Source: Rhodovulum visakhapatnamense (GTDB lineage: Bacteria > Pseudomonadota > Alphaproteobacteria > Rhodobacterales > Rhodobacteraceae). From it: a stretch of 64,000 nt of DNA. Below the pieces are notes generated by a model. That model was not told where the DNA came from and made no database searches. It was given only the letters and a program-made list of their open reading frames with translations. The stretch is taken from contig NZ_SOEB01000009.1 in assembly GCF_004365965.1 (NCBI RefSeq), positions 62,001 to 126,000 on the forward strand, in the 5' to 3' direction. The position numbers were made by a program, and so were the translations under genes. This document shows, piece by piece, positions 45,718-50,266 of this stretch (positions are counted from its first letter, which is position 1; every line of letters starts with the position of its first letter).

Positions 45718-46979
45718 CAGGCGGCGAGCCTGCCTTGCAGCGCGTCAAGCGCCGGTGCCCCCGAGACGGGGCCGTAAAGGGCCAGCGCCGGACGGGCGGA
45801 TCCGGCCAGCCGGGCCGCGAATTCGCGCACATCGCCGGTGGTGACCGCGTCGATATTGGCGACCGTCTCCTCGACCCCGGGCACGCGGTCCCAGATCGAG
45901 ACCAGCCGCGCCAGCCGCTCTGCCCGGTTGGACGGGCTTTCCAGCCCCATCAGCAGCCCCGCCTTCATCTGCACCCGGGCGCGCGCCACCTCGGCGGGGG
46001 TCATGTCCTGGGCGGCGCGGGCCAGTTCGGCCATGGTCAGCTCGGCCATCGGCCCGACCTGTTCGGCGCTGGTGCCCGCATAAAGCGTCAGCATCCCGGT
46101 ATCGGCATAAGCGCCGGTCTGGGCGAAGACGGTATAGCACAGGCCGCGTTTCTCGCGCAGTTCCTGGAACAGCCGCGAGGACATGCCGCCCCCCAGCGCG
46201 GTCGAGAAGACCTGCGCGGTATAGATGCCCGGGTCGCGATAGCCGGGGCATTCGAAGGCCAGCGCCATATGCGCCTGTTCCAGCGGCTTGATCTCGCGCC
46301 GCTCGCCTCCGGCGAACCGTGCGGGCTCCAGCAGGCCGCGCGCGGACGGTGTCTGGCCCGCGAACAACGCCTCGGCCAGACGCACGATCTCGGCGTGATC
46401 GACGGCGCCCGCGGCAGCAAGGATCATCCGGTCGGGCGTGTAATGGGTGCCAATGAAACGGAAAAGATCCTCGCGGGTAAAGCCCCGCACCCGTTCGACG
46501 GGGCCAAGGATCGAGCGGCCCAGAGCCTGAGCGGGATAGGCGACCTCTTGCAGCCAGTCGAAGATCACGTCGTCGGGCGTGTCAAGCACCTGCCCGATTT
46601 CCTGCAGGATCACGCCGCGCTCGACCTCGATTTCGTCCTCGGCGAAAAGCGGGTTCACCAGAATGTCGGCCAGCACATCAAGCGCCAGCGGCACGTCGGC
46701 TTCCAGCACCCGGGCGTAATAGGCGGTCATCTCGCGCGAGGTATAGGCGTTGATATAGCCGCCCACATCCTCGATCGCCTCGGCGATCTGAAGCGTCGTG
46801 CGCTTTTCGGTGCCCTTGAAGGCCATGTGTTCCAGGAAATGCGCGATGCCGTTTTCCTCGGGCCGCTCGTCGCGCCCGCCGGCCATGATCCAGATCCCGA
46901 TGGCCGCGGATTTCAGACCGGGCATCCGTTCGGTCACGATACGAAATCCGTTTGGCAGCCTGTGCAGCTCGACGCTCAA
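45717..46979 (-). CDS. M16 family zinc peptidase
   Basis: A 420-residue pitrilysin-family peptidase similar to the mitochondrial processing peptidase beta subunit. The inverted zinc motif HxxEH is H47-F-L-E50-H51 in AHFLEHMAFKGT, and the third ligand is the glutamate in EDEIEVERGVILQEI. The second, inactive half carries GGGMSSRLFQELREKRGLCY. A single M16 gene of this type follows thrC in many alphaproteobacteria. It starts with TTG overlapping the thrC stop by four bases, so it is translationally coupled. It presumably degrades peptides in the cytoplasm or periplasm; no signal peptide is seen. Confidence 0.9.
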   Translation of the reverse strand: MSVELHRLPNGFRIVTERMPGLKSAAIGIWIMAGGRDERPEENGIAHFLEHMAFKGTEKRTTLQIAEAIEDVGGYINAYTSREMTAYYARVLEADVPLALDVLADILVNPLFAEDEIEVERGVILQEIGQVLDTPDDVIFDWLQEVAYPAQALGRSILGPVERVRGFTREDLFRFIGTHYTPDRMILAAAGAVDHAEIVRLAEALFAGQTPSARGLLEPARFAGGERREIKPLEQAHMALAFECPGYRDPGIYTAQVFSTALGGGMSSRLFQELREKRGLCYTVFAQTGAYADTGMLTLYAGTSAEQVGPMAELTMAELARAAQDMTPAEVARARVQMKAGLLMGLESPSNRAERLARLVSIWDRVPGVEETVANIDAVTTGDVREFAARLAGSARPALALYGPVSGAPALDALQGRLAA

Positions 46980-48367
46980 CGCTTGCGCCTTTCATTGATG
47001 AGGGCTTCGAGGGCGGCAAGGTCGTTCTCGACCGGGCTCACCCGTTCCGGCCGGTCATACAGATCGGCCATCGACTTGGGAAGGGGGGGCCGCGCGCCGG
47101 TGGCGGCCTCGACCGCATCGGGGAATTTCGCCGGATGCGCCGTCGCGAGCGTCACCATCGGCGCGGCCGAGGCGGGCTGGTCGGCCGCCACCTTCACGCC
47201 GACCGCCGTATGCGGGCAGATCGTCAGCCCGGTCGCGGCGAAGGTCGCGCGGATCGTGTCGGTGGTCTCGGCCTCGGAGGCACGCCCCGAGGCAAAGGTC
47301 TCGCGCAGGAATTCCAGCGCGCCCTGGCTGATGGCGAACCCGCCCTTCGCCTTCAGATCCTCCATCTGGCCCGCCACGGCGGCACCGTCGCGGCCATAGG
47401 CCTCGAACAAGGCGCGCTCGAAGTTCGAGGACACCTGAATGTCCATCGACGGGCTGATCGAGGGCGCGACGCCCTTCGTTTCATAGGCCCCACCCGTCAG
47501 CGCCCGGTGCAGGATGTCGTTCTGGTTGGTGGCGATCACCAGCTTCTCGACGGGCAGGCCCATGCGCTGTGCGATATAGCCCGCGAAGATGTCGCCGAAA
47601 TTGCCGGTCGGCACGGTGAAGCGGACCGGGCGGTGCGGCGCGCCCAGGCTGACGGCAGAGGTGAAGTAATAGACGACCTGGGCCAGCACCCGCGCCCAGT
47701 TGATCGAGTTGACGCCCGCAAGCCCGACCGCGTCGCGGAACTCGAAATGGTTGAACATGTCCTTCAGCCGCGCCTGGCAATCGTCGAAGTCGCCCTTCAA
47801 GGCCAGCGCATGGACATTGTCCTCGGCGGGGGTGGTCATCTGGCGCCGCTGGACCTCCGAGACCCGGCCCTCGGGGAAGAGGATGAAGACATCGACATTG
47901 GACAGGCCGCGGAAGGCCTCGATGGCAGCCGAGCCGGTATCGCCCGAGGTTGCCCCGACGATGGTCACCCGCTGGCCCGAGCGTTCGAGCGCCGCCTGGA
48001 ACAGCTGGCCGATCAGCTGCATCGCGAAATCCTTGAAGGCCAGCGTAGGCCCGTGGAACAGCTCCAGCAGGAACTGGTTCGGGCCGATCTGGGCCAGCGG
48101 CGCGCGGGCGGCGTGGGTAAAACCCGCATAGGCGCGGGCGATGATCGCCTCGAAGTCCGCGTCGGTGAACGTGTCGCCCACGAAGGGGCGCATCACCGGG
48201 AACGCGGCCTCTTCATAGGAAAGCCCGGCAAGCGCGGCGATGGCCTCGGGGGTCATCGTGGGCACGGTCTCGGGCACGTACAGCCCGCCGTCACGGGCCA
48301 GCCCGGTCAGCATTGCCTCTTCGAAACTCAGGACCGGGGCCTGCCCCCGGGTCGACACATAACGCAT
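46976..48367 (-). CDS. thrC: threonine synthase
   Basis: A 463-residue threonine synthase that converts O-phosphohomoserine to threonine with PLP. It opens MRYVSTRGQAPVLSFEEAML; the PLP lysine is K112 in HGPTLAFKDFAMQL; VGATSGDTGSAAIEAFRG is the phosphate-binding loop; and FTVPTGNFGDIFAGYIA a conserved block. It leads the operon thrC-M16 peptidase-GNAT. The ATG follows GAGGGAAAG. A region of tandem hairpins lies about 200 bases upstream and could be a separate small RNA or part of the thrC leader. Confidence 0.95.
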   Translation of the reverse strand: MRYVSTRGQAPVLSFEEAMLTGLARDGGLYVPETVPTMTPEAIAALAGLSYEEAAFPVMRPFVGDTFTDADFEAIIARAYAGFTHAARAPLAQIGPNQFLLELFHGPTLAFKDFAMQLIGQLFQAALERSGQRVTIVGATSGDTGSAAIEAFRGLSNVDVFILFPEGRVSEVQRRQMTTPAEDNVHALALKGDFDDCQARLKDMFNHFEFRDAVGLAGVNSINWARVLAQVVYYFTSAVSLGAPHRPVRFTVPTGNFGDIFAGYIAQRMGLPVEKLVIATNQNDILHRALTGGAYETKGVAPSISPSMDIQVSSNFERALFEAYGRDGAAVAGQMEDLKAKGGFAISQGALEFLRETFASGRASEAETTDTIRATFAATGLTICPHTAVGVKVAADQPASAAPMVTLATAHPAKFPDAVEAATGARPPLPKSMADLYDRPERVSPVENDLAALEALINERRKR

Positions 48368-48559
48368 TGACTGCTCTTTCCCTCAACCTGACGCGTGATA
48401 CGCCAGACGCCGAGCCATGTCACCCCGCGGCGCGGCCCACCGACGATCGGGGAAGCGACGCAGGGCGAGGGGTGCACGACCGACCGCTACAGCGCGCAGA
48501 GGCCGCCAGCCGGGCGACACTGCGGCAAACTGAGGTCTGCAGGTGCATTGCGGTTTCCG

Positions 48560-48668
48560 ATAAACAAGAAATCCGGCGCTGCGGGAGCGCGCAGCGCCGG
48601 ACTCTTGATGGGTCTGGCCCGGCAATCGCCGGTCCCCTAAAGGCCCATGTGGAGCGACATGGGCCTAT
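48560..48668 (-). ncRNA. candidate small RNA: three tandem hairpins, two with the same CGCTCC hexaloop
   Basis: Read on the minus strand: a 10-bp perfect hairpin AGGCCCATGT/ACATGGGCCT (48641-48666), a 5-bp hairpin CCGGC/GCCGG (48619-48632), and an 11-bp perfect hairpin CCGGCGCTGCG/CGCAGCGCCGG (48573-48600). The first and third have unrelated stems but the identical loop CGCTCC. The last is followed by ATTTCTTGTTTAT, a U-rich tail typical of a rho-independent terminator, which sets the strand. The intergenic gap is 477 bases (48368-48844) between divergent thrC and tldD, and no gene in it is convincing. C-rich loops could pair with GGAG ribosome-binding sites. A cis-acting thrC leader is the alternative. 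The 5' end is not defined. Confidence 0.6.
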
Positions 48669-48844
48669 TCCCCGGTTCCCTGACGTGACGCCTTGCGCCA
48701 TCGTTGCAGTGGATCGCGACTGGATCGCGTCGCACCGTTGCATCTTGGGATCAGAGAAACATATTGAGCGGGGCGGCACAAGCGAAACCTGCGACATTCT
48801 GCCGCTTTTTCCAAAGCCCGCCCCGCGCCAGTTCAGGAGATCCC

Positions 48845-50266
48845 ATGCAACACCCCCCGTTCCGCCCCTTCGAGACCGCGCTGGACCGCGACCGGGCGCT
48901 GTTGCTTTTGCAGGCCGCAACGCTTGGGGCGGATGATGGCGAGCTGTTTCTGGAACGGCGCCGTTCGGAGGTTCTAAGCTTCGACGACGGGCGGCTCAGA
49001 ACGGCCAGCTACGATGCCTCCGAGGGGTTCGGCCTGCGCGCCGTCCGGGGCGAGGCTGCGGGCTATGCCCATTCCACCGAGATTTCCGAAGCCGCGCTGA
49101 AACGCGCGGTCGAGACGGCGCGGCTGGCCGTGGCCGATGGCGGCGCGTCGCTGGCGCTGGGGCCGCAGCCGACCAACCGGCGGCTTTACACCGATGCCGA
49201 CCCGCTGGCCGAGGCGCCTTTCGCGCAGAAGATCGACACGCTTCGCGAGATCGACGCCTTCGCCCGGGCGCTCGACCCGCGCGTGGTGCAGGTGACCGCC
49301 TCGGTTGCCGCCTCGTTGCAGGAGGTCGCGATCCTGCGGCCCGACGGGAGGCTGCTGTCCGACATCCGGCCGATGACCCGGCTGAACGTCTCGGTGATCG
49401 TCGAAGAGAACGGTCATCGCGAATCGGGCAGCCATGGCGGCGGCGGCCGCACCGGGCTGGCCGGGCTGATCGACCGCGCCTCCTGGGAGGCCTCGGCGCG
49501 CGAGGCGCTGCGCGTCGCGCTGGTCAATCTGGACGCCGAGCCCGCCCCTGCCGGAACCATGGATGTGGTGCTGGGCCCCGGCTGGCCCGGCATCCTGCTG
49601 CACGAGGCGGTGGGCCACGGGCTCGAGGGCGATTTCAATCGCAAGGGCAGTTCGGCCTTTGCCGGGCTGATGGGCCAGCAGGTGGCGGCGAAGGGCGTGA
49701 CCGTTCTGGACGACGGCACGATCCCCGACCGGCGCGGCTCGATCACCTTCGACGACGAGGGCACGCCCTCGAACCGCACCGTGCTGATCGAGGACGGCGT
49801 GCTGGTGGGCTACATGCAGGACCGCCAGAACGCCCGGCTGATGGGGGTTGCGCCCACCGGCAACGGGCGGCGCGAAAGCTATGCCCATCCGCCGATGCCA
49901 CGGATGACGAATACCTGCATGCTGGGCGGCGACGCCGCGCCCGCCGACATCCTGGCCGATCTGAAGGACGGGATCTATGCGGTCGGCTTCGGCGGCGGGC
50001 AGGTGGACATTACCAATGGCAAGTTCGTCTTCAGCTGCACCGAGGCCTATCGGGTGAAGAACGGCAAGCTCGGCGCCCCGGTCAAGGGCGCCACGCTGAT
50101 CGGCGACGGCCCCGCCGCGATGAAGCAGATTCGCGCCATCGGCAACGACATGGCGCTGGACCCGGGAATCGGCAACTGCGGCAAGGCCGGACAATGGGTG
50201 CCGGTGGGCGTCGGCCAGCCGACCCTGCTGATCGGCGGGCTGACCGTGGGCGGTGCCGGGGCCTGA
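48845..50266 (+). CDS. tldD: metalloprotease TldD
   Basis: A 473-residue TldD. The zinc motif HExxxH is H253-E-A-V-G-H258 in LLHEAVGHGLEGDFNRKGSS, followed by the conserved DDEGTPSNRTVLIEDG and SYAHPPMPRMTNT, and GFGGGQVDITNGKF near the end. With PmbA (TldE), not present here, it forms a heterodimeric peptidase that trims small peptides such as microcin precursors and the CcdA antitoxin. The ATG at 48845 has a CAGGAG ribosome-binding site. dprA and topA follow on the same strand with gaps over 150 bases, so separate promoters are likely. Confidence 0.95.
   Translation: MQHPPFRPFETALDRDRALLLLQAATLGADDGELFLERRRSEVLSFDDGRLRTASYDASEGFGLRAVRGEAAGYAHSTEISEAALKRAVETARLAVADGGASLALGPQPTNRRLYTDADPLAEAPFAQKIDTLREIDAFARALDPRVVQVTASVAASLQEVAILRPDGRLLSDIRPMTRLNVSVIVEENGHRESGSHGGGGRTGLAGLIDRASWEASAREALRVALVNLDAEPAPAGTMDVVLGPGWPGILLHEAVGHGLEGDFNRKGSSAFAGLMGQQVAAKGVTVLDDGTIPDRRGSITFDDEGTPSNRTVLIEDGVLVGYMQDRQNARLMGVAPTGNGRRESYAHPPMPRMTNTCMLGGDAAPADILADLKDGIYAVGFGGGQVDITNGKFVFSCTEAYRVKNGKLGAPVKGATLIGDGPAAMKQIRAIGNDMALDPGIGNCGKAGQWVPVGVGQPTLLIGGLTVGGAGA

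Follow-up and report, generated by a model that had tools for sequence, protein, structure and literature searches.

The RNA closest in kind to the one proposed here is UpsM of Rhodobacter sphaeroides, described in PMC5089854 as a 5' leader in which termination at a Rho-independent site produces a non-coding RNA believed to act in trans. UpsM still precedes a live gene cluster, dcw, whereas at the locus reported here, a different one, the leader has lost the gene it preceded; the likeness, a terminated 5' leader RNA, is one of description. The CcsR1-4 RNAs (CIN1) form a set of four homologues, located behind a DUF1127 gene and with an RpoH promoter, according to PMC8307010 and PMC10253847; what they would have in common with our RNA is a C-rich loop able, by inference, to pair with GGAG. 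PcrZ and PcrX, small RNAs placed under PrrA, AppA and FnrL in PMC8307010, are likened to it by description, for possible redox control by RegA/PrrA.

Our locus resembles UpsM in its homology to the 5' leader of a gene: the coxB leader of one relative, Rhodovulum genome G010, is 63-72% identical to each of 14 Rhodovulum leaders, each comparison scoring above 200 of 200 mononucleotide shuffles. Kinship with the CcsR family, brought up in an earlier sequence-only reading of this DNA, is not borne out: the directly neighbouring genes are thrC and tldD and not a DUF1127 gene, there is one locus per genome in place of several homologous tandem copies, and the loop is CGCTCC (CGCUCC in RNA) in 13 of 13 genomes instead of the CUCCUCCC named in that reading. 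A literature search, from whose reach most subscription papers lay outside, returned no record of the RNA.

The window (the whole stretch analysed, 64,000 nt) carries thrC on the minus strand and tldD on the plus, so that the 477 bases between them form a divergent intergenic region. Its features are as follows.

46976-48367, minus strand: thrC, threonine synthase (Pfam).
48395-48423, minus strand: thrC promoter-like site GTGACA-N17-TATCAC, remnant of the surf1 3' end (14 of 14 loci).
48560-48571, minus strand: T-rich, terminator-like tail after SL-T, TTTCTTGTTTAT (terminator scan).
48572-48601, minus strand: SL-T, terminal hairpin with a 12-bp stem and loop CGCTCC at 48589-48584 (minus sense).
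48619-48632, minus strand: SL-C, middle hairpin, CCGGC GATT GCCGG on minus.
48641-48666, minus strand: SL-B, second hairpin with loop CGCTCC (L001-L004 only).
48670-48680, minus strand: GGGAACCGGGG, former coxB ribosome-binding region.
48686-48700, minus strand: SL-A, small hairpin, inherited from the coxB leader.
48738-48765, plus strand: proposed tldD promoter TTGCAT-N16-CATATT (other-genus comparison).
48760-48782, minus strand: CTTG-N15-TATG, minus-direction control element (recurrence across loci).
48789-48805, minus strand: GCGGC-N5-GTCGC inverted repeat, possible RegA/PrrA site (loose pattern).
48845-50266, plus strand: tldD (Pfam PmbA/TldD domains).

Read along the minus strand, SL-A comes first, then GGGAACCGGGG, SL-B and SL-C, and last SL-T with its T-rich tail. 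No Rfam 15 family reaches its gathering cut-off anywhere in the window, and Rfam at E<=1 over 48300-48900 gave a sole match, sbcD on the plus strand, whose 20.8 bits fall short of its cut-off of 40 and which we take as chance.

Both hairpins described in the sequence-only reading lie at the places it gave, sharing the loop it noticed (GGAGCG on plus, CGCTCC on minus), and the small hairpin it put between them is found at 48619-48632. The second has the ten pairs claimed, around loop 48651-48656; the length of the first had been slightly understated, at 11 bp, since it forms 12 Watson-Crick pairs (48572-48583 with 48590-48601), or 15 when G-U pairs are included. Only nine perfect 9-bp stems with an unextendable hexaloop occur in 359,704 bases (the window plus 44 loci); three of them carry CGCTCC, two in the window and one that is the same hairpin in R. 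adriaticum, and none of the other six does. The terminator scan returned two overlapping minus-strand sites at SL-T against 0.3 expected, SL-T itself being the longest match.

On either strand a 161-nt stretch of the locus folds better than each of 200 dinucleotide shuffles, with z of -3.42 for minus and -4.44 for plus, so the strand has to be told by covariation and not by folding energy. Perfect inverted repeats fold on both strands in any case, and z-scores by species, lower on minus in nine of 13 and equal in L013, are slightly lower on plus in three (L001, L002, L005); this much speaks for a feature of the DNA itself, such as protein binding sites, or for a plus-strand RNA bearing GGAGCG loops, a CsrA-like motif. 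Covariation points the other way. Read on the minus strand, the four helices comprise 310 Watson-Crick, 12 G-U, 0 A-C and 2 other cells, the stems having been paired by hand because the RNAalifold alignment misplaced six bulged sequences; the limits of SL-A and SL-C were chosen on the minus strand, which makes the count for SL-T plus SL-B, 5 G-U against 0 A-C cells, the fairer test. Wobble pairs are G·U on minus and never on plus, so that in this comparison the minus strand shows itself to be the RNA strand. The hairpins also lie upstream of the proposed tldD promoter, and we consider a DNA-level or plus-strand feature very improbable.

A covariance model of SL-T finds a match at the locus in 13 of 16 genomes of Rhodovulum, the window's genus of marine bacteria, with E of 2.6e-8 or better. 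Conservation of the loop in close relatives, on which the RNA proposal had been made to depend, holds for SL-T (48584-48589), where CGCTCC is kept in these 13 of the 16 genomes; for the other loop (48651-48656) it reaches less far, SL-B being found only in four of the 13, the window's genome and three relatives (L001-L004). The loop played no part in choosing the loci: overall likeness across the intergenic region brought in 14, of which 13 have CGCTCC, the 14th, G002, being without SL-T. In all 13 the six loop bases are invariant, and the stem is altered by compensating substitutions: five of its eight loop-proximal pairs are substituted on both sides with pairing retained (pairs 7 and 8 judged only on the seven sequences that have no one-base bulge), and in L007 and L009 the closing pair has gone from G-C to A-T with the loop unchanged. 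Among fourfold sites of five neighbouring genes in the same 13 genomes (tree length 4.4), 180 of 987 are invariant. By this comparison the SL-T loop is shown to be under constraint, and an RNA-level function on the minus strand, argued earlier from a loop kept while stems change, gains support from the genus-wide loop, the compensating substitutions and the G-U cells. In the two lesser hairpins, SL-B varies at one stem pair (C-G, T-A or T-G), and SL-C has a variable stem that keeps its pairing and, in seven relatives, a loop ending in TCGACTG.

Searches for further copies were made with the SL-T model (R1) and a looser CGCTCC-hairpin model (R2). Each genome yields a single locus with them; no more than two CGCTCC hairpins occur there, and the pair, seen in four genomes, has unrelated stems. 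R2, run on 16 genomes with up to 150 candidates scored in each, recovers SL-T in 13 and SL-B in four; its ten further matches, at E 0.02-0.84, have other loops by eye, so that no hairpin family is visible. Run under stricter filters on 198 family genomes (one per genus, own included), R1 gave only two weak matches in other genomes, one of them in G061. Of its three weak matches away from the locus, those in G000:C7 and G160 have other loops. When 61 genomes were searched at the DNA level, 15 proved to carry the region (14 Rhodovulum, including the window's own, and one of another genus), and a pattern scan of named genomes gave nine records: seven Rhodovulum (marinum, steppense, strictum, euryhalinum, adriaticum, bhavnagarense, tesquicola), a Gemmatimonadales MAG and one from Microbacteriaceae. 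The weak R1 match in G061, of another genus, has a 12-bp minus-strand hairpin, GTCCGGGGCCGC / GCGGCCCCGGAC, with loop CGCTCCC (L041, 1231-1263); it lies at an unrelated place between other genes, and may be chance or a relative.

The origin of the element emerges from what faces tldD elsewhere. A tldD match was obtained in 147 other genomes; in all of the 29 best-scoring loci from other genera, tldD diverges from coxB, the first gene of the aa3 oxidase operon. The order is the same in G010, whose tldD-thrC interval holds COX2, UbiA (ctaB), CtaG, COX3 and SURF1 by Pfam. The remaining 15 Rhodovulum genomes yielded no true coxB: COX2 goes unmatched in 13, and in two (G006 and G008, loci L044 and L045) it gives a partial match, scoring 23.7 bits, to frames of 672 residues that we take to be, probably, nitrous oxide reductase. 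Across the family COX2 is present at E<=1e-20 in 191 of 198 genomes. Yet 14 of the 15 Rhodovulum without coxB keep its leader and ribosome-binding region. GGGAACCGGG is present in 13 of the 14 leader-bearing loci and GGGAACTGG in L014; G010 has GGGAACCAGGGAG at the same position, immediately 5' of the coxB ATG. In 13 leader-bearing genomes the leader runs into SL-T, ahead of thrC's promoter-like site.

At the other end, six of 14 queries with the thrC promoter-like region find, at E<=1e-3, the 3' end of G010's surf1 or the equivalent position in G031; in a blastn-short search against cox coding sequence at the same threshold the middle part had no match, and the surf1-end region alone matched. 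Leader homology at the coxB start, taken with the surf1-end match, points to a deletion with one end near the coxB start and the other in the last surf1 codons. At the level of sequence comparison both the operon deletion and the leader homology are shown, and by that comparison the element is a relic of the coxB leader from a deleted oxidase operon, an origin that had been missed before. A further loss is seen in another genus: at L104 (G189) coxB is gone and a UbiA-type gene (ctaB-like, by eye) stands directly behind a truncated leader.

A five-gene protein tree places G009 outermost, then G010, then the 14 leader-bearing genomes, with support of 71 for the 14 and 100 for the 14 plus G010. 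In the nucleotide tree G010 goes with G003 (support 28), as it does in a thrC-only tree (support 57). The protein-tree order implies two losses within the genus, one of them leaving the RNA, which we favour without regarding it as proven. Two genomes are exceptions: G002 keeps the leader, and has about where SL-T would be a different GC-rich hairpin with a different loop; in G009 leader, elements and hairpin are all gone.

The control elements have been maintained and show no decay. CTTK-N15-TRTG occurs in 14 of 14 leader-bearing Rhodovulum, in 23 of the 29 other-genus coxB loci and in G010, and in none of three coxB-less loci that lack the RNA (G009, and G150 and G189 of other genera); further coxB-less genomes of the family were incomplete or had no good tldD match. 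A loose RegA-like repeat is present in 14 of 14 and 22 of 29 respectively; the coxB-less loci without the RNA give one loose match, in G009, at the thrC promoter site, and the repeat of G010, GCGGC-N5-GCCGC, is not caught by the loose pattern. A search for sigma-70 sites gave no match here. A motif like the proposed tldD promoter recurs in 24 of 29 other-genus loci, and the promoter is retained in G150 and G189. Its other-genus form, TTGTNN-N16-CATATT, has fixed spacing and overlaps the minus-direction TATG, which could possibly serve as a shared -10 for divergent promoters. As this TATG is common to both, tldD may account for some of the conservation seen upstream. An earlier candidate for the minus-strand promoter, CAATATGTTT...GATACAAC, was dropped in part, other genera fitting a tldD promoter on plus.

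The thrC promoter-like site outlives the loss of the operon: a pattern finds it in 14 of 14 loci, and it can be made out by eye in G009 and G150 as well. In G010 it already exists, inside the surf1 3' end. It bears on whether the hairpins, upstream of thrC and on its strand, are a cis-acting thrC leader working by attenuation or a ligand. The site, thrC's own, lies downstream of SL-T; the window's sole short frame behind GGGAACC, MSLHMGL, has no threonine; and no Rfam riboswitch was found in the window at gathering cut-off or at the locus at E<=1. Such a leader seems to us improbable. The kept ribosome-binding region could alternatively mark a small mRNA, the old coxB site now driving a short protein: GGGAACCGGG is there in 13 of 14 loci, and L001-L004 have an ATG 11 nt behind it. 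We rejected a reading frame at this place because five of the 14 loci offer no start codon near enough, and in the rest the frames are unlike in length and sequence; among the explanations weighed this is the one we credit least.

The best explanation of these data would be a non-coding RNA of about 150-190 nt, transcribed from the minus strand of the tldD-thrC interval, that was formerly the 5' leader of coxB. When the aa3 operon (coxB, ctaB, ctaG, coxC, surf1) was deleted, leader and control elements would have stayed, and SL-T, a new hairpin, would end the transcript ahead of thrC's promoter-like site. Its unpaired CGCUCC loop would present a CUCC able to pair with GGAG ribosome-binding sites, and most likely would serve a trans-acting small RNA under redox control as its pairing loop. 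That the RNA is transcribed, that RegA/PrrA controls it (compare PMC4263372), that it ends at SL-T and that it pairs with mRNAs are all inferred steps. SL-T may be a releasing terminator, being terminator-like in the window, and the T-rich tail follows it in five of 13 species (L001-L004, L013), the sequence elsewhere being C-rich or mixed by eye.

The main rival grants the origin and denies the action: SL-T would be an insulator that merely stops transcripts of the orphaned coxB promoter before thrC. Its position between the old coxB control region and the thrC promoter-like site in 13 of 13 genomes, its terminator-like form in the window, and the different strong hairpin of G002 at about the same place all suit this. 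A terminator does not need a fixed loop, however, and here six loop bases are invariant; the SL-C loop is recurrent too, and the old ribosome-binding region is kept though the gene behind it is gone. An insulator alone is on these grounds rather unlikely, though the most serious of the alternatives. Against the small-RNA reading itself count the restricted T-rich tail, the exceptions G002 and G009 and the lack of a sigma-70 match, and also the plus-favouring folds of three species and the uncertain position of G010. Weighing these, we lean, if narrowly, towards a redox-controlled trans-acting small RNA derived from the orphaned coxB leader and terminated at SL-T. That the operon deletion made of a redox-controlled leader a stand-alone trans-acting small RNA maintained by selection, its CGCUCC loop acting on other mRNAs, we put forward tentatively, as a possibility falling a little short of probable.

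How bacteria come by new small RNAs is an open question. In the present case living relatives display every stage: the coxB leader as ancestor, deletion of the operon as the event, and a conserved hairpin RNA as the outcome. Among them are G010, its operon intact, and lineages in which the minus-direction elements disappeared along with the gene, so that the birth of a small RNA becomes testable step by step in harmless phototrophs. If the proposal is true, a regulatory RNA would have been born by gene loss, and what was a respiratory signal would now act on other mRNAs.
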